Shown here: in pieces, positions 12,514-62,582 of the stretch
Layout of the letters: each line of letters starts with the position of its first letter
How positions within the stretch are numbered: position 1 is the first letter of the stretch
NCBI RefSeq assembly: GCF_013149275.1
Contig: NZ_JABGNA010000003.1
Span: forward strand, 372,001 to 436,000
Length of the DNA: 64,000 nucleotides
Reading direction: 5' to 3'
Origin: Mucilaginibacter sp. SG564
GTDB lineage: Bacteria > Bacteroidota > Bacteroidia > Sphingobacteriales > Sphingobacteriaceae
Notes under the pieces: model-generated
Databases searched by the model: none
Told to the model about the DNA's origin: nothing
What the model saw: only the letters and a program-made list of their open reading frames with translations
Position numbers and translations under genes: made by a program

Positions 12514-14610
12514 ATGGCTGAGCAATTAATTGAATTGAACGTGACAGGGATGCATTGTAATAATTGTGCCTTATCTGTACATAAACTACTTGAAAAAAGG
12601 GGCTTACATAATATACTGGTCGACTTTGCCAGCGAAGAGGTAAAATTTTCAACCAACGATAGCTCCAAATTGCCCGAAATAAAAAAGGGAATAGAAAATT
12701 TAGGTTTTAGAGTGATTGACGATATTTCGCAACATCAGCCTTCATTTTACGATAAAGTAGAGAATAAATTTGTCTTCTGCGCCCTGTTTACCGTACCTCT
12801 TTTACTCGGCATGTGGTTGCCCTGGCATGTATTACATCAACCTATTGTACAACTATTATTATGCCTGCCGGTATTTATAGTAGGCTGCCTGCATTTTGGT
12901 AAAAGTGCATGGAGTTCTGTAAAAGGTGGCGTACCCAATATGGATGTGCTCATATTTATCGGTTCAACATCGGCATTTGTATATAGCCTTACGGGTACAC
13001 TGCAGCATTTAGGTCCGCAGTATCAGTTTTACGAAACGTGTGCTACTATTATTACCCTGGTACTATTAGGCAATGTGTTTGAAAAACGATCCGTGACCCA
13101 AACCACGTCGGCAGTAAAAGATCTGATCAAATTTCAGCAGGTAAATGCTAACCGTGTTGTTAACGGCGGTGTGGAAGTGATCAGCGCCAAAGAAGTACGC
13201 CCAGGTGATACCTTATTAGTAAATCAGGGAGATAAAATACCTGTTGACGGCGAAATTCTGTCTGGCAGCGCGTCTGTAGATGAGGCCATGCTTACCGGCG
13301 AAAGTTTACCCGTTGAAAAGAAAAAATATGACAGGGTAATAGGCGGTACTATACTAGTTAACGGCAATATACATATGCTGGCCACCAAAGTTGGCTCCAA
13401 TACTATCCTGTCGCAGATCATCGAGCTGATGAAAAAAGCCCAGGCAGCCAAGCCGCCTATTCAAAAACTGGGTGATAAGGTTGCTTCTATATTTGTACCA
13501 GCAGTGCTGGGTATCTCCCTGCTTACCTTTGTACTTACTTTTTACATCGTTCATGCCGGTCTGCAGCATTCGTTGCTGAACGCGATAGCCGTATTGGTGA
13601 TATCATGCCCTTGCGCTATGGGACTGGCTACCCCTACTGCGGTAATGGTAGGTCTTGGTCGTGCGGCTAAGAGTGGCATCCTCATCAAGGGTGGTGACAC
13701 GATTGAAGCCGTAGCCCATACCAAATATGTGGTATTTGATAAAACAGGCACCTTAACCACCGGCAAGTTCAGCATCAATGAGATCAAAGCCGAAGCTGGC
13801 GTCGATATCGAATTGATCCGAGGCATCATTATCGCCATTGAAGAGCGATCAAACCATCCAATAGCCAAATCACTGGTGAGCGGATTAAAAAATCTCCCCC
13901 GGCAAAAAGTAATCCTCAAAGTAGCCAAAGAGGAAAAAGGCCTCGGTATGCGTGCCGAAGACGTACAAGGCAGCAATTACTTCCTCGGTACTGCCAAACT
14001 GAATAAGGACGATCATTTTAATCTCTCCCTTTATAAAAACCAGCAGTTACTGGCCCAGATAGCGCTTGATGATGAAATAAAACCCGAAACGGCCTCCCTT
14101 ATAGCCCAACTCAAAAAAATGGGCATCAAACCCATACTATTGAGCGGCGACAAAAAAGACCGTTGCCTCAAAGTGGCCTCTGCTATAGGCATTAAGGAGG
14201 TGCATGCCGAAAAACTGCCCGACGAAAAGTTGAAAGTGATCGAGATGTATAAGCAAAAAGGTAAAACCATCATGATAGGCGATGGAATAAATGATGCCCC
14301 TGCATTAACCAAAGCCGATGTGGGCGTATCCATGAACGATGCCAGCCAGGTGGCTATACAATCAGCCAGTGTTGTGCTGCTTAATACCGATCTGAATTCG
14401 GTGATTAAATTTTTACAGATCAGCAAGCATACCCTGCTCACCATTAAACAAAATCTGTTTTGGGCATTTGCATATAACATTGTAGCCATTCCTCTGGCAG
14501 CCCTGGGCTTTTTAAACCCGATGGTAGGCGCATTTACCATGGCTTTTTCAGATGTGGTGGTGATTGGTAATTCGCTGAGGTTGAAAATTAAAAAGGTCGA
14601 TGGTCGATAG
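12514..14610 (+). CDS. copA: Copper-translocating P1B-type ATPase
   Basis: The 698-residue protein begins with one heavy-metal-associated domain (GMHCNNC, Cys15 and Cys18). It contains the actuator motif LTGES, the membrane copper site CPC (Cys365-Pro-Cys367 in SCPCAMG), the phosphorylated Asp409 in DKTGT, the HP dipeptide of the nucleotide domain (SNHPIA) and the hinge GDGINDAP. Helix 7 has N-x6-YN-x4-P ([14 protein letters not shown]). Together these indicate a P1B-1 Cu(I) exporter in the inner membrane. Helix 8 reads MAFSD where MxxSS is often seen. TAGATTTG at 12501-12508 fits the Bacteroidota -7 element and would leave almost no leader. The 3' end of the gene overlaps one arm of an inverted repeat. 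Confidence 0.94.
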
Positions 14611-14706
14611 ACCATAGTCCATGGCCCTTTCATTTTCTGTTTTATTTACGCATAAGTCAAAGTTTCTTACTTTTGCAGCTGTGGACTATGGTCTATCGTC
14701 CATGGA
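14595..14706. repeat. Inverted repeat of 'CCATAGTCCA' words
   Basis: The two arms share the exact 17-mer CGATAGACCATAGTCCA (14604-14620) and its complement (14682-14698), and similarity continues on both sides. The left arm covers the copA stop codon, and the right arm ends 10 nt before rnhA. The rnhA promoter lies between the arms. Confidence 0.8.
14668..14675 (+). promoter_or_regulatory. -7 promoter element of rnhA (TACTTTTG)
   Basis: TACTTTTG followed by C fits TAnnTTTG(C). It sits about 40 nt upstream of the rnhA ATG, inside the loop of the surrounding inverted repeat, so the transcript leader would carry only the right arm. Confidence 0.5.
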
Positions 14707-14715
14707 CTAACAATT

Positions 14716-15174
14716 ATGATAGAAATATTTACAGACGGTGCATCAAGCGGGAATCCGGGTCCGGGTGGTTATGGGGTAATTTTGCGTTCGGGGAAGCATT
14801 ATAAAGAGCTTTCTGAAGGCTTTCGCAAAACCACCAACAACCGTATGGAACTACTGGCTGTAATCAAGGGACTGGAAGCGCTGAAAACCCCTAATCAGCA
14901 GGTGATGATCTTCTCCGACTCCAAATATGTGATCGATTCCATTGAAAAACGCTGGGTAAATGGCTGGGTGCAAAAAGGTTTCGCGGGCAAAAAAAATAAA
15001 GACCTCTGGCTCCGTTATCTCGATATCAGCAAGCACCACCAGATCAAATTTACCTGGGTACGCGGTCATAACGGTCACCCCGAAAACGAACGCTGTGATG
15101 AACTGGCTGTAGCCGCCGGGAAACAGAAACCACTGCTTATAGATTCGGTTTTTGAAGTGGAGAATGGGAAATAA
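14716..15174 (+). CDS. rnhA: Ribonuclease HI
   Basis: The 152-residue enzyme cleaves the RNA strand of RNA-DNA hybrids in the cytoplasm and helps remove primers and R-loops. All four carboxylates are visible: Asp7 (IFTDGASSGNPGPGGYG), Glu45 (NNRMELLAVI), Asp68 (IFSDSKYV) and Asp128 (NERCDEL). His at about 118 lies in the WVRGHNGHPEN loop. The basic handle WVNGWVQKGFAGKKNKDLW is present, as in E. coli RNase HI. The length is normal. It stands alone between two inverted-repeat blocks. Confidence 0.96.
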   Translation: MIEIFTDGASSGNPGPGGYGVILRSGKHYKELSEGFRKTTNNRMELLAVIKGLEALKTPNQQVMIFSDSKYVIDSIEKRWVNGWVQKGFAGKKNKDLWLRYLDISKHHQIKFTWVRGHNGHPENERCDELAVAAGKQKPLLIDSVFEVENGK

Positions 15175-15178
15175 TTAG

Positions 15179-15268
15179 TATCAAGTAGCTAGTATCAAGT
15201 ATCACGACTTTTTTCTTTTTATATTGAAGAGGCATAGCATCTTGATACTTGATACTAGCTACTTGATA
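15179..15268. repeat. TATCAAG-word inverted repeat, locus 1
   Basis: A 26-nt arm at 15179-15204 is perfectly complementary to 15243-15268 across a 38-nt loop. Each arm is built of partly repeated words (TATCAAGTA, GCTAGTATCAAG). A near-identical element lies at 61168-61276. This copy is between the convergent rnhA and phosphodiesterase genes and could also end transcription. Confidence 0.88.
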
Positions 15269-15270
15269 CC

Positions 15271-15295
15271 CTACCTACCTACCTACCTACCTACC
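15271..15295. repeat. CTAC tetranucleotide microsatellite
   Basis: Just over six tandem CTAC units run into the stop codon (TAG on the minus strand, 15291-15293) of the phosphodiesterase gene. Changes in copy number by slippage would leave the coding sequence intact. Confidence 0.9.
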
Positions 15296-15788
15296 ACCTT
15301 CCCGCCAGCTCTATTACCTGTAAATCCTGAATTTTATCGCCATCGATATTAAAACGCATCAGCGTACGTACTTTATGCCAGCCTTGCTGCCCGGCCGCGC
15401 CTGGGTTAAGATGCAGGCAGCCAATAGTTTTATCGGGCATCACTTTCAATATATGCGAATGGCCTGAGATAAACAACTTAGGCGGGTTTAAGTAGATCTC
15501 CTTTTTCACCGCCGGACTATATTTACCCGGATAACCGCCAATGTGGGTCATCCATACATCAACACCCTCACAATTAAAACGCAGATTTTCCGGGTATATC
15601 AATCTTACATCCTTTTGGTCGATATTGCCATATACCCCTTTTAGCGGTTTAAAAGCGGCCAGTTTATCGGCCAGCTCCAGGGTGCCGAAATCGCCGGCAT
15701 GCCATATTTCATCGCAATTTTCAAAATGCTTAAAAACGGCCTCGTCGAGGTAACTGTGGGTATCGGATATCAGGCCTATGCGGGTCAT
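15291..15788 (-). CDS. YfcE/MJ0936-type metallophosphoesterase
   Basis: The 165-residue protein has the compact metallophosphoesterase fold. The metal ligands are visible in order: DTH (Asp9, His11 in GLISDTHSYLDE), GDFG (about 37-40), GNID (about 55-58), the later MTHIGGYPGKY, and GHSH (about 109-112). Members hydrolyse phosphodiesters in vitro; the physiological substrate is usually unknown. A TATATTTG element just upstream gives a very short leader. The stop codon lies in a CTAC microsatellite. Confidence 0.92.
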   Translation of the reverse strand: MTRIGLISDTHSYLDEAVFKHFENCDEIWHAGDFGTLELADKLAAFKPLKGVYGNIDQKDVRLIYPENLRFNCEGVDVWMTHIGGYPGKYSPAVKKEIYLNPPKLFISGHSHILKVMPDKTIGCLHLNPGAAGQQGWHKVRTLMRFNIDGDKIQDLQVIELAGRW

Positions 15789-16935: not shown

Positions 16936-17020
16936 TTTGTTGGTGACAACACCAACAAAGTGCGAAGTTGTCCTCGCTGCCGTTGTTTTTGCCGCCCGTT
17001 GTTGGTGTTGTCACCAACAA
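16936..17020. repeat. Left REP pair (BIME-like)
   Basis: There are two hairpins facing each other, with 28 nt between them. The stem is TTGTTGGTG/CACCAACAA with loop ACAA (TTGT in the second unit). The tails are AGTGCG after unit 1 and CGCCCG before unit 2. Confidence 0.85.
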
Positions 17021-17050: not shown

Positions 17051-17578
17051 ATGGCCGAAATCAATTTTGACTATCACCCTCAATTTTTCACCGCAACTAT
17101 ACTGGAATGGAAACCCTTATTACAGGACAACGCTTTTAAAGATATCATCATCAAAAGTCTTTTATTTTTAACCAATGAAAAAAGCATTGTTGTTTATGGT
17201 TTTGTGATCATGCCGAATCATATTCATTTAATATGGCAGATTCAGGATGGTTATAAACAGGATGTTATTCAATTACGTTTTTTAAAATTCACCGCACAAC
17301 AATTCAAATTTAAATTATTGGATACTGACGATGATAGGCTACCCCTATTTTTAGTAAACGCTAAAGATAGAAAATATCAATTTTGGGAAAGAAATTCATT
17401 GAGCACTGATTTATGGGGTCCGAGAGTGTTTATGCAAAAGTTGGATTATATACATAATAACCCGCTCCAAAAAAAATGGCAATTAGCTACTTTACCGGAA
17501 GACTATAAATATTCATCAGCAAGGTTTTATTTGACAAATGAGGATAATTTCGGCTTTCTGAAACATCATAATGAATAA
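17051..17578 (+). CDS. REP-associated tyrosine transposase (RAYT, Y1/IS200-like HUH)
   Basis: The 175-residue protein has the HUH motif His57-Ile-His59 in MPNHIHLIW and the catalytic tyrosine Tyr133 in QKLDYIHNNP, with the typical end YKYSSARFYL. These are the hallmarks of Y1 single-strand transposases of the RAYT/IS200 superfamily, which cut DNA at REP hairpins. The gene is flanked on both sides by matching REP pairs, which supports the RAYT assignment over an ordinary IS200 element. It appears intact. It lies between trmN6 and a VOC gene. RAYTs are usually vertically inherited and single copy, so the host may use them rather than suffer them (known for the family, not shown here). Confidence 0.9.
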   Translation: MAEINFDYHPQFFTATILEWKPLLQDNAFKDIIIKSLLFLTNEKSIVVYGFVIMPNHIHLIWQIQDGYKQDVIQLRFLKFTAQQFKFKLLDTDDDRLPLFLVNAKDRKYQFWERNSLSTDLWGPRVFMQKLDYIHNNPLQKKWQLATLPEDYKYSSARFYLTNEDNFGFLKHHNE

Positions 17579-17611
17579 AAGCATAATGGTATTTGTTGGT
17601 GATAACTGATG

Positions 17612-17724
17612 TTTGTTGGTGACAACACCAACAAAGTGCGGGGCGTGAGCATTAAATTTTTACTTCGAAGATTATTTTAAATAAAAATCTTCTTACCGCC
17701 CGTTGCTGGTGTTGTCACCAACAA
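17612..17724. repeat. Right REP pair (BIME-like)
   Basis: There are two facing hairpins with the same 9-bp stems as the left pair, separated by 56 nt. Unit 2 reads GCTGG where the left copy reads GTTGG. It ends 6 nt before the stop codon of the VOC gene, so it may also act in the 3' end of the purL-VOC transcript. Confidence 0.85.
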
Positions 17725-17730
17725 GCATAA

Positions 17731-28851: not shown

Positions 28852-28888
28852 ACCATCGGCTGAAACACCTACTGTAAACTAAATAAAA

Positions 28889-29012
28889 GCTGTCATTTCG
28901 AACGAGGTACGAGGAGAAATCTTATACGATTAACCAGACGAACATTGCAAGGTGTAAAAAATTTCTCCTCACGCCATCTCACCACCCAAACTTGTTCGTT
29001 CGAAATGACAGA
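28889..29012. repeat. GTCATTTCGA-family inverted repeat, full copy
   Basis: The left arm begins GCTGTCATTTCGAACGAGG and runs to GAGGAGAAATC. The right arm is its complement (ATTTCTCCTC… to CGAAATGACAG). The loop is about 40 nt. A half copy is at 31903-31938. Confidence 0.8.
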
Positions 29013-29123
29013 TTTTTTTGACTTTTAAATTTTGAATTTTGACTTCTCCTTCCAACTCACTTCATTACCGAAAGCACCTGCACAACCGGCAGATAGGGTG
29101 TTAAAAGTTTACGGATGAACTTG

Positions 29124-34214: not shown

Positions 34215-34246
34215 AAAGCTGCATTTTTAAAGATGCAGCTTTTTTA
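34215..34246 (+). terminator. Terminator of the first amt gene
   Basis: A perfect 10-bp stem AAAGCTGCAT/ATGCAGCTTT with loop TTTTAAAG is followed by TTTT. Confidence 0.88.
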
Positions 34247-34372
34247 ATTATTGAATTATTGATTTAGTGAATTAGTGATTTCTTTGTCGGAACCCGAATT
34301 AGTAGAATTTAAGAATTAACTCGGTTGAGGGCTGCGCCGTTTTCAGGATTTGACTAACTTGCTTACCAATTT

Positions 34373-34440
34373 CTCACTACTCACTACTCACTACTCACTA
34401 CTCACTACTCACTACTCACTACTCACTACTCACTACTCAC
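34373..34440. repeat. 7-bp tandem repeat (TCACTAC, about 9.6 copies)
   Basis: TCACTAC is repeated perfectly about nine and a half times, ending 4 bp before the stop codon of the DUF4468 gene (minus strand). There are no spacers, so it is not a CRISPR. It probably varies in length by slippage. Confidence 0.93.
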
Positions 34441-41348: not shown

Positions 41349-41571
41349 CGACTCACCCTGTCATCGCTGCGCTCGACATCCCTCTCTTCGCCTACGGCGT
41401 AAAGAGGGAGTTTTTTGTCATCCTGAGGAACGAAGGATCTATTTTAAGATTGAAAAGTTCAATAATAGATGCTTCACTTCGTTGAGCATGACAGATCTAT
41501 TTTTCCCTTCACCCTCTTTCCGCAGTAGGCGAAGAGAGGGTCGCCTAGCGAAGCGTAGGCGGGGTGAGTCG
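41349..41571. repeat. Nested inverted repeat: 60-nt outer arms around a GTCATCCTGAGG pair
   Basis: The outer arm 41349-41409 (CGACTCACCC … CCCTCTCTTCGCCTACGGCG) is imperfectly complementary to 41512-41571 (… GTAGGCGAAGAGAGGG … GGGGTGAGTCG). Enclosed at 41415-41495 is copy B of the GTCATCCTGAGG family. The whole block lies between the glnA terminator and the purM promoter. Confidence 0.8.
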
Positions 41572-47536: not shown

Positions 47537-48928
47537 ATGGATTACGATTTAATTGTTATAGGATCAGGCCCGGGTGGTTACGTAGCAGCAATCCGCGCTT
47601 CCCAACTTGGTTTAAAAACTGCTGTTATTGAAAAAGAATCAGTAGGCGGCATATGTCTTAACTGGGGTTGTATCCCCACTAAAGCCCTATTAAAAAGTGC
47701 CCAGGTATTTGAATACATCAACCACGCTTCTGATTATGGCATCAATGTAAATGGTACCGGCGAGGTTAATTTTGAATCGGTTATCAAACGCAGCCGCGGT
47801 GTTGCCGATGGCATGAGCAAAGGCATCCAGTTTTTGATGAAGAAAAACAAGATTGATGTAGTTGCCGGTTTTGGTAAATTAAAATCAAAAGGTGTTGTTG
47901 AAGTAAAGGCCGCTGATGGCTCAACCAAACAAATCACCGCTAAACATATTATACTGGCCACTGGCGGCCGCTCACGCGAATTACCTAACCTGAAACAGGA
48001 TGGCAAAAAAGTGATTGGCTACCGCGAGGCTATGTCATTACCCAAACAACCAAAATCATTGGTAGTGGTAGGTTCTGGCGCTATCGGTATCGAATTTGCT
48101 TATTTCTATAACTCTATCGGCACTAAAGTTACCGTAGTAGAGTATTTGGATAACATCGTTCCGTTGGAGGATGAAGAAGTTTCAAAAGGATTGAACCGTA
48201 TCCTGAAAAAACAAGGCATCAACATTATGACCAGCGCTAATGTGGAGTCTGTTGATACCAGCGGCGAGCTTTGCAAAGTGAACGTTAAAACCGCATCGGG
48301 TGTTGAGATATTGGAAGCCGAGGTTGTATTATCAGCCGTGGGTATCTCTACCAATATCGAAGGCATCGGTTTAGAAGAAAACGGTGTTAAAACAGATAAA
48401 GGCAAAGTACTCGTTGATGATTTTTACCGCACCAATGTAGAAGGCGTTTATGCTATTGGCGATATTGTAAAAGGTCAGGCGCTGGCACACGTAGCCTCCG
48501 CCGAAGGCATCATCTGCGTAGAGAAAATTGCAGGTCACCACCCTGAGCCATTAAATTACAACAACCTTCCGGGTTGTACTTACTGCTCGCCCGAAGTTGC
48601 CTCTGTGGGTTATACCGAAAAAGCCGCTAAAGAAGCCGGTTACGAAATTAAAGTGGGTAAGTTCCCATTCTCGGCATCAGGTAAAGCCAGCGCAGCCGGT
48701 GCTAAAGATGGTTTTGTAAAACTGATATTTGATGCCAAATACGGCGAGTTCCTGGGCGCACACATGCTGGGTAATAACGTTACCGAACTGATTGCCGAAG
48801 TAGTTACCGCACGCAAGCTGGAAGCAACAGGTCATGAGATCATCAAATCGGTTCATCCGCACCCAACCATGAGCGAAGCTGTAATGGAAGCTGCCGCCGA
48901 AGCTTACGGCGAATGTATACATTTGTAA
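47537..48928 (+). CDS. lpdA: Dihydrolipoyl dehydrogenase
   Basis: The 463-residue flavoprotein is the E3 component of 2-oxo acid dehydrogenase complexes, reoxidising dihydrolipoamide with NAD. FAD motif: VIGSGPGGYVAAIRASQLG. The redox disulfide is Cys40/Cys45 in GGICLNWGCIPTKALL. The NAD domain has VVGSGAIGIEFAYFY. The second FAD contact is VYAIGDIVKG, and the catalytic base pair is HPHPTMSEA (His-Glu). It has a strong terminator and no E1/E2 genes nearby. Confidence 0.97.
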   Translation: MDYDLIVIGSGPGGYVAAIRASQLGLKTAVIEKESVGGICLNWGCIPTKALLKSAQVFEYINHASDYGINVNGTGEVNFESVIKRSRGVADGMSKGIQFLMKKNKIDVVAGFGKLKSKGVVEVKAADGSTKQITAKHIILATGGRSRELPNLKQDGKKVIGYREAMSLPKQPKSLVVVGSGAIGIEFAYFYNSIGTKVTVVEYLDNIVPLEDEEVSKGLNRILKKQGINIMTSANVESVDTSGELCKVNVKTASGVEILEAEVVLSAVGISTNIEGIGLEENGVKTDKGKVLVDDFYRTNVEGVYAIGDIVKGQALAHVASAEGIICVEKIAGHHPEPLNYNNLPGCTYCSPEVASVGYTEKAAKEAGYEIKVGKFPFSASGKASAAGAKDGFVKLIFDAKYGEFLGAHMLGNNVTELIAEVVTARKLEATGHEIIKSVHPHPTMSEAVMEAAAEAYGECIHL

Positions 48929-49033
48929 AATTCAAAAGTTAAAATTCAAAAGCCGGTTGCTTATATAGTTACCGGCTTTTGTTTTTATATCAACCGGAGT
49001 AGAGTTTTTGAATTTTGAATTTTTACTTTTGAC
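48927..49033. repeat. 'AAAATTCAAAAG' word inverted repeat around the lpdA terminator
   Basis: The left arm (48927-48951: AAAATTCAAAAGTTAAAATT then CAAAA) pairs imperfectly with the right arm (49005-49033: TTTTTGAATTTTGAATTTTT then ACTTTTGAC). The lpdA terminator hairpin lies in the loop. The right arm ends 5 nt before the next ATG. Confidence 0.6.
48948..48987 (+). terminator. Terminator of lpdA
   Basis: A perfect 10-bp stem AAAAGCCGGT/ACCGGCTTTT with a 13-nt loop is followed by GTTTTTA. Confidence 0.85.
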
Positions 49034-49038
49034 TTACT

Positions 49039-60485: not shown

Positions 60486-61151
60486 TTAGGCTAAAGGTTG
60501 TTCGGCAATTAAACCATCTTTCATTAATATGGTACGATCAGACAAATTGGCCAGATCCTCATTATGCGTAACGATCACAAAGGTTTGATTGAAATCTTTA
60601 CGCAGCTTGATAAACAATTCGTGCAGTTCCAGCGCGTTCACCGAATCGAGGTTGCCCGATGGTTCATCGGCAAATATCAAAGCCGGGCTATTGATGAGCG
60701 CACGTGCCACGGCTACCCTTTGCTGCTCGCCGCCTGATAGTTCATTAGGTTTATGGTTCACCCTATCGGCCAAGCCCAGGCGTTCCAGTAGTTCTGTGGC
60801 TCTTTTTTCGGCCTCAGCGCGGGCTGTACCTGCTATAAACGCGGGGATACACACATTTTCAACAGCTGTAAACTCGGCCAGTAAATGATGAAACTGAAAA
60901 ATAAAGCCAATTTTACGGTTACGAAAATCGCTCAGCTGCCGGTTGCTTAACTTGCTCAACTCGATATTATTGATAAACAACTGACCAGAATCGGGCCTGT
61001 CCAGCGTACCCAATATATTAAGTAAGGAGCTTTTACCCGCGCCGGATGCGCCAACAATGGTTACAATTTCCCCCTGCTGTACATCCAGGTCAACCCCTTT
61101 TAATATTTGCAGCTGCCCGTATGATTTATGGATAGATGTAGCTTTAAGCAT
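60486..61151 (-). CDS. lolD: LolD-type lipoprotein-release ABC ATP-binding protein
   Basis: The 221-residue ATPase of the MacB/LolD group drives release of lipoproteins, or related MacB-type export, from the inner membrane. Walker A is [12 protein letters not shown], the Q-loop [13 protein letters not shown], the signature [16 protein letters not shown], Walker [14 protein letters not shown], the H-loop [10 protein letters not shown]. The LolD-type [10 protein letters not shown] segment favours LolD over MacB. The permease subunits LolC/E are not in the window. It begins the minus-strand cluster lolD-60185-HAD. Confidence 0.92.
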
Positions 61152-61167
61152 TTACAAATGTAAAATT

Positions 61168-61276
61168 AGTATCAAGTAGTTAGTATCAAGTATCAAGATT
61201 TTTTACAATGGAGTCTAAATCCTATAATCTGCATACAGAAAACGGTCGTGATACTTGATACTAACTACTTGATACT
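61168..61276. repeat. TATCAAG-word inverted repeat, locus 2
   Basis: A 28-nt arm (61168-61195) is perfectly complementary to 61249-61276 across a 53-nt loop. The arm differs from locus 1 (15179-15268) at one position, and both arms carry the same change. It lies between divergent lolD and sucC. Confidence 0.88.
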
Positions 61277-61388: not shown

Positions 61389-62582
61389 ATGAATATTCAC
61401 GAATATCAGGGTAAAGCTATATTAAAGAGCTTTGGCGTTAGAGTTCAGGAAGGCATTGTTGCCGACAATCCTGAAGAGGCTGTTGCGGCTGCGCAAAAAA
61501 TGAAGGAAGACTTTGGGTCTGACTGGGTAGTTATAAAAGCACAAATACATGCCGGTGGCCGTGGAAAAGGTGGTGGCGTAAAGCTGGCCAAAAATCACGA
61601 TCAGGTTAAAGAGATTGCCGGTAACATTATAGGTATGCAACTGGTTACTCCGCAAACCGGACCAGAAGGTAAAAAAGTAAAAAAGGTTTTAGTAGCACAG
61701 GATGTTTACTACCCGGGCGAAAGTGAAACAAAAGAGTTTTACATGAGCGTACTGCTTGATCGCGCCCGTGGCCGTAACATCATCATGTACAGCACCGAAG
61801 GTGGTATGGACATTGAGGAAGTTGCACACTCAACCCCCGAATTAATATTTAAAGAAGAAATTGACCCTAAAGTTGGTTTGCAACCATTCCAGGCACGTAA
61901 AATTGCCTTTAACCTGGGTGTTAGCGGCGATGCTTTTAAAGATATGGTAAAATTCATTACCGCTTTATACAAAGCTTATGATGCTACCGATTCTTCGCAA
62001 TTTGAAATTAACCCGGTATTAAAAACATCCGACAATAAAATTTTAGCGGTTGACGCTAAAGTAAACCTGGATGATAACGCGTTATACCGTCACCCGGATT
62101 ACGCCGCTATGCGTGATACCGATGAAGAAGATCCAACCGAGGTTGAAGCCGGTAAATCAAACCTTAACTATGTAAAACTTGATGGTAACGTGGGTTGTAT
62201 GGTTAACGGTGCCGGTTTAGCCATGGCTACCATGGATATCATTAAACTGGCCGGTGGCGAGCCCGCTAACTTTTTGGACGTAGGTGGTACCGCAAACGCG
62301 CAAACTGTTAAAGCTGGTTTTAACATCATCCTGAGCGATCCAAACGTAAAAGCTATCCTGATCAATATTTTTGGCGGTATAGTACGTTGCGACCGTGTGG
62401 CGCAAGGTGTTATTGACGCTTATAAAGAAATTGGCAACATCCCTGTACCTATCATCGTTCGTTTGCAAGGCACCAACGCTGCCGAAGCCAAAGAACTGAT
62501 CGATAACTCAGGCTTGAAAGTATTCTCGGCTATCCTGTTAAAAGAAGCTGCCGAAAGAGTAAAAGAAGTATTGGCTTTGTAA
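61389..62582 (+). CDS. sucC: Succinate-CoA ligase (ADP-forming) subunit beta
   Basis: The 397-residue beta subunit of the TCA-cycle succinyl-CoA synthetase begins MNIHEYQGKAILKSFGV and has an ATP-grasp region (WVVIKAQIHAGGRGKGGGVKLAK), FEINPVLKTSDNKILAVDAKVNLDDNALYRHP, and the C-terminal CoA-ligase half with GLAMATMDIIKLAGGEPANFLDVGG and INIFGGIVRCDRVAQGV. ATG 61389 is chosen because the longer frame from 61248 reads through the repeat and has no homology. SucD is not adjacent. A terminator follows at 62603. Confidence 0.96.
   Translation: MNIHEYQGKAILKSFGVRVQEGIVADNPEEAVAAAQKMKEDFGSDWVVIKAQIHAGGRGKGGGVKLAKNHDQVKEIAGNIIGMQLVTPQTGPEGKKVKKVLVAQDVYYPGESETKEFYMSVLLDRARGRNIIMYSTEGGMDIEEVAHSTPELIFKEEIDPKVGLQPFQARKIAFNLGVSGDAFKDMVKFITALYKAYDATDSSQFEINPVLKTSDNKILAVDAKVNLDDNALYRHPDYAAMRDTDEEDPTEVEAGKSNLNYVKLDGNVGCMVNGAGLAMATMDIIKLAGGEPANFLDVGGTANAQTVKAGFNIILSDPNVKAILINIFGGIVRCDRVAQGVIDAYKEIGNIPVPIIVRLQGTNAAEAKELIDNSGLKVFSAILLKEAAERVKEVLAL

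Follow-up and report, generated by a model that had tools for sequence, protein, structure and literature searches.

S23p, or IVP (PF05635), is a four-helix-bundle protein. To our knowledge it has no assigned function or catalytic domain and is known from rRNA intervening sequences; the structure of an S23p-like protein of Xanthomonas campestris, XCC0516, has been solved (2gsc). For the heptanucleotide repeats of bacteria we know of no explanation. In the sections of the report drawn on here, the intervening sequence (IVS) of the Coxiella burnetii 23S rRNA is 428 nt long, has terminal repeats forming a 28-bp stem and tandem heptamers near its 5′ end, upstream of S23p, and is cut out by RNase III (PMC4990558).

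Tandem heptamers are also described from several other bacteria, here again following the sections cited. GGGAATC repeats of Xanthomonas form 70–75 inverted pairs per genome and are reported to be stable and generally without association with mobile elements, and the GGGGA(C/T)T repeats of Nostoc include few inverted pairs, none of them on plasmids (PMC4692102). The STRR of cyanobacteria are usually 7-mers and capable of forming hairpins (PMC2670836), and TAACTGA repeats, counted as 169 direct and one indirect, occur in Beggiatoaceae, Cyanobacteria and Bacteroidetes (PMC4679880). As for hairpins in general, template switching between the arms of an inverted repeat homogenises the arms and inverts the spacer (PMC8604942), and hairpins have been suggested to arise and persist through it (PMC8794818), according to the portions of these papers used here. 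A link between heptamer repeats and S23p outside rRNA was found neither in the cited parts of these papers nor in searches of an open-licence library with few subscription papers or preprints.

Two heptamer hairpins and their neighbours

The window, a stretch of 64,000 nucleotides from Mucilaginibacter sp. SG564, holds two near-perfect hairpins (15178–15269 and 61168–61276). A repeat search of the window confirmed the two loci of the first-pass annotation, and they belong to one family. They are listed with their neighbours and two further gene-less hairpins.

14596..14707, no strand: gene-less hairpin, arms GTCGATG GTCGATA GACCATA GTCCATG
14716..15174, plus strand: rnhA (ribonuclease HI), its stop codon followed by 3 nt and then hairpin 1
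15178..15207, plus strand: left arm of hairpin 1, TATCAAG TAGCTAG TATCAAG TATCACG
15208..15239, no strand: loop of hairpin 1 (32 nt)
15240..15269, minus strand: right arm of hairpin 1, an inverted copy
15291..15788, minus strand: YfcE-family phosphodiesterase, convergent with rnhA
48927..49035, no strand: gene-less hairpin, arms AAAATTC AAAAGTT AAAATTC AAAAGCC
60486..61151, minus strand: LolD-like ABC ATPase, its start 16 nt from hairpin 2
61168..61198, plus strand: left arm of hairpin 2, TATCAAG TAGTTAG TATCAAG TATCAAG
61199..61245, no strand: loop of hairpin 2 (47 nt), orientation unchanged in sister species G080
61246..61276, minus strand: right arm of hairpin 2, an inverted copy
61389..62582, plus strand: sucC, succinate-CoA ligase beta, divergent from the LolD-like gene

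The arms are 30 nt at locus 1 (15178–15207/15240–15269) and 31 nt at locus 2 (61168–61198/61246–61276), 97% complementary in each case. Variants are matched within the locus, as had been noticed: GTAGCTAG is found in both arms of locus 1 and GTAGTTAG in both arms of locus 2. Two properties had been overlooked, namely that every arm consists of four 7-mers (period 7) on the shared plan TATCAAG TAGYTAG TATCAAG TATCAxG, and that the loop ends next to the arms are common to the whole family. Neither hairpin locus has a match in Rfam. For the gene at 60486..61151, LolD is the best match, scoring under the cut-off of the LolD model; named relatives of this gene, up to 87% identical, agree with an origin of the window in Mucilaginibacter.

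This genome (G000) was compared with those of two sister species, G080 and G083, using about 0.5 Mb per sister genome. In G080 the loop of hairpin 1 has the same orientation and is identical at 37/38 bases between the arm cores. Directly after hairpin 1, at 15270–15299, there is a CCTA tandem run of 7.8 copies, which G083 lacks and of which G080 has a far shorter version (CCCAACCAAC).

Like the Coxiella IVS, as the cited parts of its report describe it (PMC4990558), the elements have terminal inverted repeats with tandem heptamers near their ends, and their long form, of about 430 nt, has S23p inside; for the heptamers, the likeness covers those near the 5′ end of the Coxiella IVS. Unlike that IVS, they are intergenic, mostly gene-less, and present in many copies and with many arm words in one genome; both window loci lie between protein genes and not inside a 23S rRNA gene, and their short loops do not hold S23p. 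Likened by description, and as far as the cited parts of those reports go, they share with the STRR, TAACTGA, Xanthomonas and Nostoc repeats tandem 7-mers in largely intergenic positions, and differ from TAACTGA and the Nostoc GGGGA(C/T)T, which are mostly direct or have few inverted pairs, in that the arms here are inverted. Hairpin formation by STRR and the inverted pairs of Xanthomonas are further points in common, and the stability reported for the Xanthomonas repeats is a further difference; heptamer repeats that are not inverted, or do not look mobile, count against the selfish-element reading given below. With REPIN/RAYT systems they share two short inverted repeats around a variable spacer and intergenic dispersal, and they differ in having arrays of 7-mers for arms in place of REP palindromes, and in that no RAYT lies between arms of this family in the stretches seen. 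Arm homogenisation and spacer inversion are likewise seen in template switching at short inverted repeats; the cases in the cited portions concern yeast coding DNA and RNA genes (PMC8604942, PMC8794818), those here dispersed bacterial hairpins.

TATCAAG hairpins in the genome and its relatives

If at most 2 mismatches are allowed, the window holds 18 occurrences of the word TATCAAGTATCA, where 5.9 would be expected, a count reached in 0 of 100 shuffles. Exact matches to this 12-base core word number 154 across the 6.83-Mb genome, compared with 14 for its reversed control. Within 1.264 Mb of this genome we found 31 two-armed copies of the TATCAAG (T) family, a set that is not an unbiased census because the stretches were partly picked for holding copies. 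Their two-armed architecture is constant. Most copies are polar, one arm running into CAAGATT and the other into CA(C/A)GAC. They occupy tight intergenic gaps, 25 between tandem, 4 between divergent and 2 between convergent genes by our own ORF calls, and their polarity is random with respect to transcription (14 sense, 11 antisense).

A search for the 27-nt arm that allowed up to 3 mismatches gave matches in 30/61 genomes of the genus and in 81/151 genomes of a sample of the order, the latter all from one family (5/12 genera); genomes with 1–3 matches may be there by chance, since the reversed control also matches many (up to 10). The positions are conserved in the sister species. Indeed, 16 of the 17 T copies of G080 lie at a syntenic place with a T copy in this genome, so recent mobility is not seen, and the sister-species comparison gave neither a clean empty site nor a target duplication. 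Automatic classing assigned the same family to the same site at 21/25 places in G080 and 14/26 in G083, counts that are lower bounds since elements visible by eye were missed (e.g., C1:790339 and C2:191949).

The T family is one of several. The same 1.264 Mb holds 121–122 inverted repeats in total, including further families of period 7 (AGTCAAG, GTTCATAG/GTCCATAG, AAAATTC, TGAGATA) and of period 8 (TTAGTGAA, ATGTGCAA). Among non-TATCAAG arms with a self-match of at least 0.7, the best lag is 7 in nine, 8 in six, 10 in one and 11 in one, and 1/122 shuffled arms passes this threshold. The same spot in a sister species can hold a different or unrelated hairpin family. Around lolD, in a set of 80 named Bacteroidota loci, 12/27 repeats of the Mucilaginibacter group were periodic by the same threshold, versus 5/47 other repeats; BLAST with nine S23p queries found no S23p gene at the 80 loci. 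In the window, AATTAGTG-type octamers stand opposite 9.7 perfect CTCACTA heptamers at 34246–34440, possibly a hairpin whose sides have different periods (8 and 7). At 28876–29025 and 41349–41571, similar intergenic slots are taken by hairpins of further types without periodicity, which may form a distinct REP-like class.

S23p genes between heptamer arms

Elsewhere in Mucilaginibacter, arms of this family have a gene between them. Eight long stretches were analysed: those around arm pairs 384–405 bp apart (start to start) in G094, G057, G023, G034 and G049, and three others in G055 and G036. The enclosed ORF is about 115 aa long; an ORF beginning MHNFKELK lies between or beside the arms in 6/8 stretches, and that of G034 matches PF05635 (23S_rRNA_IVP, E 4e-40) and TIGR02436. 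S23p is the sole gene between TATCAAG arms in the eight stretches. Profile searches matched the arm-enclosed gene to no known transposase; for a MITE family, a transposase with the same terminal repeats and a target-site duplication would be expected. The TATCAAG arms thus exist with the gene and without it in different species. The suggestion of the first-pass annotation that the arms moved together agrees with this and with the constant two-armed architecture.

In the gap between metH and metF, 16/30 species have an S23p gene by tblastn. Ten of the 16, from one lineage, have TATCAAG arms, nine of them being 72–80% identical to the tenth, G034. The other six proteins are 40–47% identical to that of G034, and by eye their genes have other 7-mer-like end words, with an inverted repeat of at least 12 in 1/6. 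The remaining 14/30 species have no S23p and, by eye, mostly other hairpins. In G000 and G080 (L340, L347) the gap ends in CGCAACCCGAGC..CGCAACCCGAACC, next to a GTCATTGCGAG-type hairpin; by eye this end resembles the right-hand end of the S23p element in G083, and it is likely a relic of a lost S23p element.

Rich as it is in T hairpins, this genome has no T-armed S23p gene among its 8 PF05635 genes, and for this reason we gave up the idea that the number of T copies follows T-type S23p. The T hairpins were also considered as internal-deletion remnants of S23p elements. The likeness of their loops to the ends of T-type S23p genes did not exceed that of shuffles (2.5, with a null value of 2.96), and an origin by internal deletion is therefore not shown.

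S23p genes in general have an excess of inverted 7/8-mer arms. All 8 genes of this genome have inverted arms scoring at least 12 with a best period of 7 or 8, the self-match of the arms being just 0.52–0.53 for two of them (a first version of the arm search gave p below 0.05 for 7/8). Of control genes of similar length, 10/243 reach 12 (Fisher p 1e-10 versus 8/8) and 5/243 reach 14.5; the RAYT-like gene of the window is one of two among these five with TTGTTGGTG hairpins. For 6 of the 8 arm pairs, this genome has gene-less hairpins that match them at 16 or more, compared with at most 16 for 18 plasmid S23p arm pairs (Mann-Whitney p 0.0009). For example, the gene-less hairpin at 14596..14707 is the best match (score 18) to the arms of S23p element L318 of this genome, and by eye the words of that at 48927..49035 resemble the arms of L322. 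Among 27 Mucilaginibacter S23p genes examined, 21 reach an arm score of 12; the 6 below are five of the six non-TATCAAG metH-metF genes and one TATCAAG-armed gene (11).

The arms are found beyond this phylum. Of 28 plasmid records returned by tblastn, 24 were analysed, the other 4 being near-copies by name; 21 are cyanobacterial and the rest come from Gemmatirosa, Riemerella and Azospirillum. In 20/24 the S23p gene has arms at p<=0.01, and in 19/24 significant arms also have a period-7 or -8 self-match of at least 0.65; the repeat of Nostoc UHCC 0926 is non-periodic. Arm words include AGTAGGG, TTTTAGC, AACAGGG, GTGTAGG, AGGTGAC and AAGTCAG in cyanobacteria, an 8-mer in Gemmatirosa, GTTCAAG in Riemerella and a degenerate 7-mer in Azospirillum. 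The 4/24 loci where significant arms are absent are those of Nostoc HK-01, Calothrix NIES-4105 (gene split), Fischerella and Nostoc 53789 pNsp_b (genes short), and several of them have 7-mers nearby. Gene ends of L367 and L373–L375 were set by hand. On the plasmids of Pseudanabaena, Anabaena sp. 90 and Picosynechococcus the S23p genes lie among cas genes (L357, L362, L365), between cas6 and cas4 or, in type III-B, between cas10 and a Cmr3-family gene. One query each found no S23p in viral contigs or in phages. PF05635 is present in 116/148 sampled Bacteroidota genomes, with up to 16 copies.

Close S23p relatives agree in their arm words. Protein and arm similarity correlate with r 0.51 over 28 elements (0/10000 permutations), and over 27 elements with r 0.25 (6/10000) for pairs below a protein similarity of 0.7 and r 0.20 (62/10000) below 0.6; mean arm similarity is 0.81 above a protein similarity of 0.65 and 0.24–0.36 below it. 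In this set metH-metF was represented by one T-type and one other protein, and proteins under 85 aa and plasmid genes with internal stops or without significant arms were excluded. Of two near-duplicates, L377 was left out of the correlations and the hairpin-match test, and L371 out of the 27-element correlation and the same test. The correlation shows that S23p gene and arms travel together, and the agreement, strong only among close proteins, may reflect co-descent.

Matching of arms and inversion of loops

When the arms of a locus are compared with randomly paired arms, they match above chance in all three species, so that the within-locus identity reported from two loci holds in part for the family. 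The central 4-mer is equal in both arms at 16/30 loci in G000 (9.8 expected; 85/20000 permutations), 14/17 in G080 (7.5; 12/20000) and 10/11 in G083 (4.7; 14/20000). Mismatches per locus in the 27-nt core are 1.53, 1.18 and 2.36 in the same order, against 1.81, 1.64 and 3.44 under random pairing (123, 28 and 630 of 20000). The 30 G000 loci come from the 1.264 Mb, a composite at C2:135363 being dropped. Permutation of whole 30-nt arms gave no excess of matching, the signal being masked by the fixed polar bases at the arm ends. The first-pass annotation had proposed to give up the covariation as chance if arms differ freely within loci; arms do differ in the central 4-mer at 14/30 G000 loci, but the matching exceeds chance in each species.

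Orthologous copies record how the elements change. In 42 pairwise comparisons, the loop has clearly the same orientation in 20, is clearly inverted in 8 and is unclear in 14. The inversions fall at five loci (C1:771518, C1:790340, C2:18849, C7a:12158 and C7b:5976), the strongest being those at C2:18849, C7a:12158 and C7b:5976; the loops at C1:771518 and C1:790340 belong to a subfamily in common with other copies. Among the 567 arm positions compared between orthologues, the same change is seen in both arms in 15 cells and a change in one arm only in 45. The 15 matched cells come from 9 separate changes, spread over 6 loci, and differing 7-mer number accounts for 3 of these changes; about one would be expected under independence, by our estimate from the one-arm rate. 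At C1:771518, for example, GTAG became GTAA in both arms in G080 with the loop preserved. Spacer inversion and matched changes in orthologues, the two marks of an inverted repeat maintained by template switching, are therefore both present, and they back the proposal that one arm is copied onto the other. The number of 7-mers gives weaker backing: by eye, both loop-side arms are equally reduced in three G083 copies (to three 7-mers at C1:790340 and C2:193589, to two at C7b:5976), while at least 4 sister copies and 2 copies here have unequal numbers.

Could the elements have spread as C-type and T-type units, with no arm copying afterwards? Such subfamily structure would account for the many occurrences of both variants, for the constant two-armed unit and for one-arm changes being commoner than matched ones, but not for loops that invert in place or for matched changes inside orthologous elements whose loops are preserved, such as C1:771518, and we judge it rather unlikely. 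Compensatory selection on an RNA stem, be it a regulator, a stabiliser or a bidirectional terminator, had been offered by the annotation as another way of pairing arms. It would fit the folds, which are extremely stable at the two loci whichever strand is folded (z about −10 to −11), and the occurrence of matched changes and retention of stems across species. Random polarity and the predominance of tandem sites (2/31 convergent, 4 divergent) count against it, as do the flipping loops and the unrelated hairpins at some sister-species sites. A scan of locus 1 gave 0 terminator-like sites, as opposed to the short GC-rich stem with a T run of an intrinsic terminator, and locus 2 lies between divergent genes, where a terminator would stand downstream of genes. 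The terminator or RNA regulator is thus weakened as a candidate, and stem selection is not needed and is in our view unlikely; that a gene-specific regulatory role is improbable, as was held before, is supported.

Inverted loops at five loci might also be the work of a site-specific recombinase for which the arms are recognition sites, and paired inverted sites are typical of recombinases. Loops of about 38–80 bp would be short for synapsis of duplex sites, however, and recombination alone does not account for matched base changes in both arms, which makes this quite unlikely. Very improbable is an origin as REP/REPIN elements mobilised by a REP-associated tyrosine transposase (RAYT), even though the hairpins are short, dispersed and intergenic, the window has a RAYT-like gene at 17051–17575 and the genome one PF01797 gene elsewhere. 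The RAYT-like gene (NF047646, 65.7 bits, under the cut-off of 80; no PF01797 match) is bordered on both sides by a different, non-periodic hairpin, TTGTTGGTGACAACACCAACAA, at 16937–17020 and 17609–17728, and is likely a RAYT with its own repeat family. A cognate RAYT would be flanked by the same repeats, but this gene has TTGTTGGTG hairpins and, in the eight long stretches, the gene between the T arms is S23p, and on these grounds the RAYT/REPIN origin was rejected.

Loop flips, matched changes and the known behaviour of template switching lead us to prefer arm-to-arm copying over compensatory selection, and the evidence points to such copying rather than to RNA regulation. The T hairpins are likely gene-less, intergenic selfish elements of the S23p/IVS type, whose arms are matched by template switching. 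Both window loci belong to a single dispersed family of hairpins about 100 bp long ("T elements") with arms of four 7-mers. The class of which this family would be part has, in its other members, a single gene, S23p/IVP (PF05635), enclosed by such inverted arms. From their distribution, the elements would have spread as two-armed units. Later, DNA polymerase may have switched template at the hairpin and copied one arm onto the other, which would keep the arms locus-matched and flip the loop; probably, the arms keep matching in this way. S23p would be a factor that belongs to the element, and it may recognise the 7-mer of that element.

More tentatively, and with more doubt than confidence, S23p elements might be minimal mobile elements found across phyla, whose protein reads its own 7- or 8-mer and spreads gene-less copies, many bacterial heptamers (STRR, the Xanthomonas pairs) being their arms or relics. 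The published TAACTGA and Nostoc repeats, mostly not inverted, speak against so wide a reading. Through the tie between S23p and heptamers, the protein would have in its 7-mer a partner that can be tested, and for the repeats there would be an origin that can be tested. The T hairpins, whose arms match and whose loops flip at many sites, would be a natural record of template switching.
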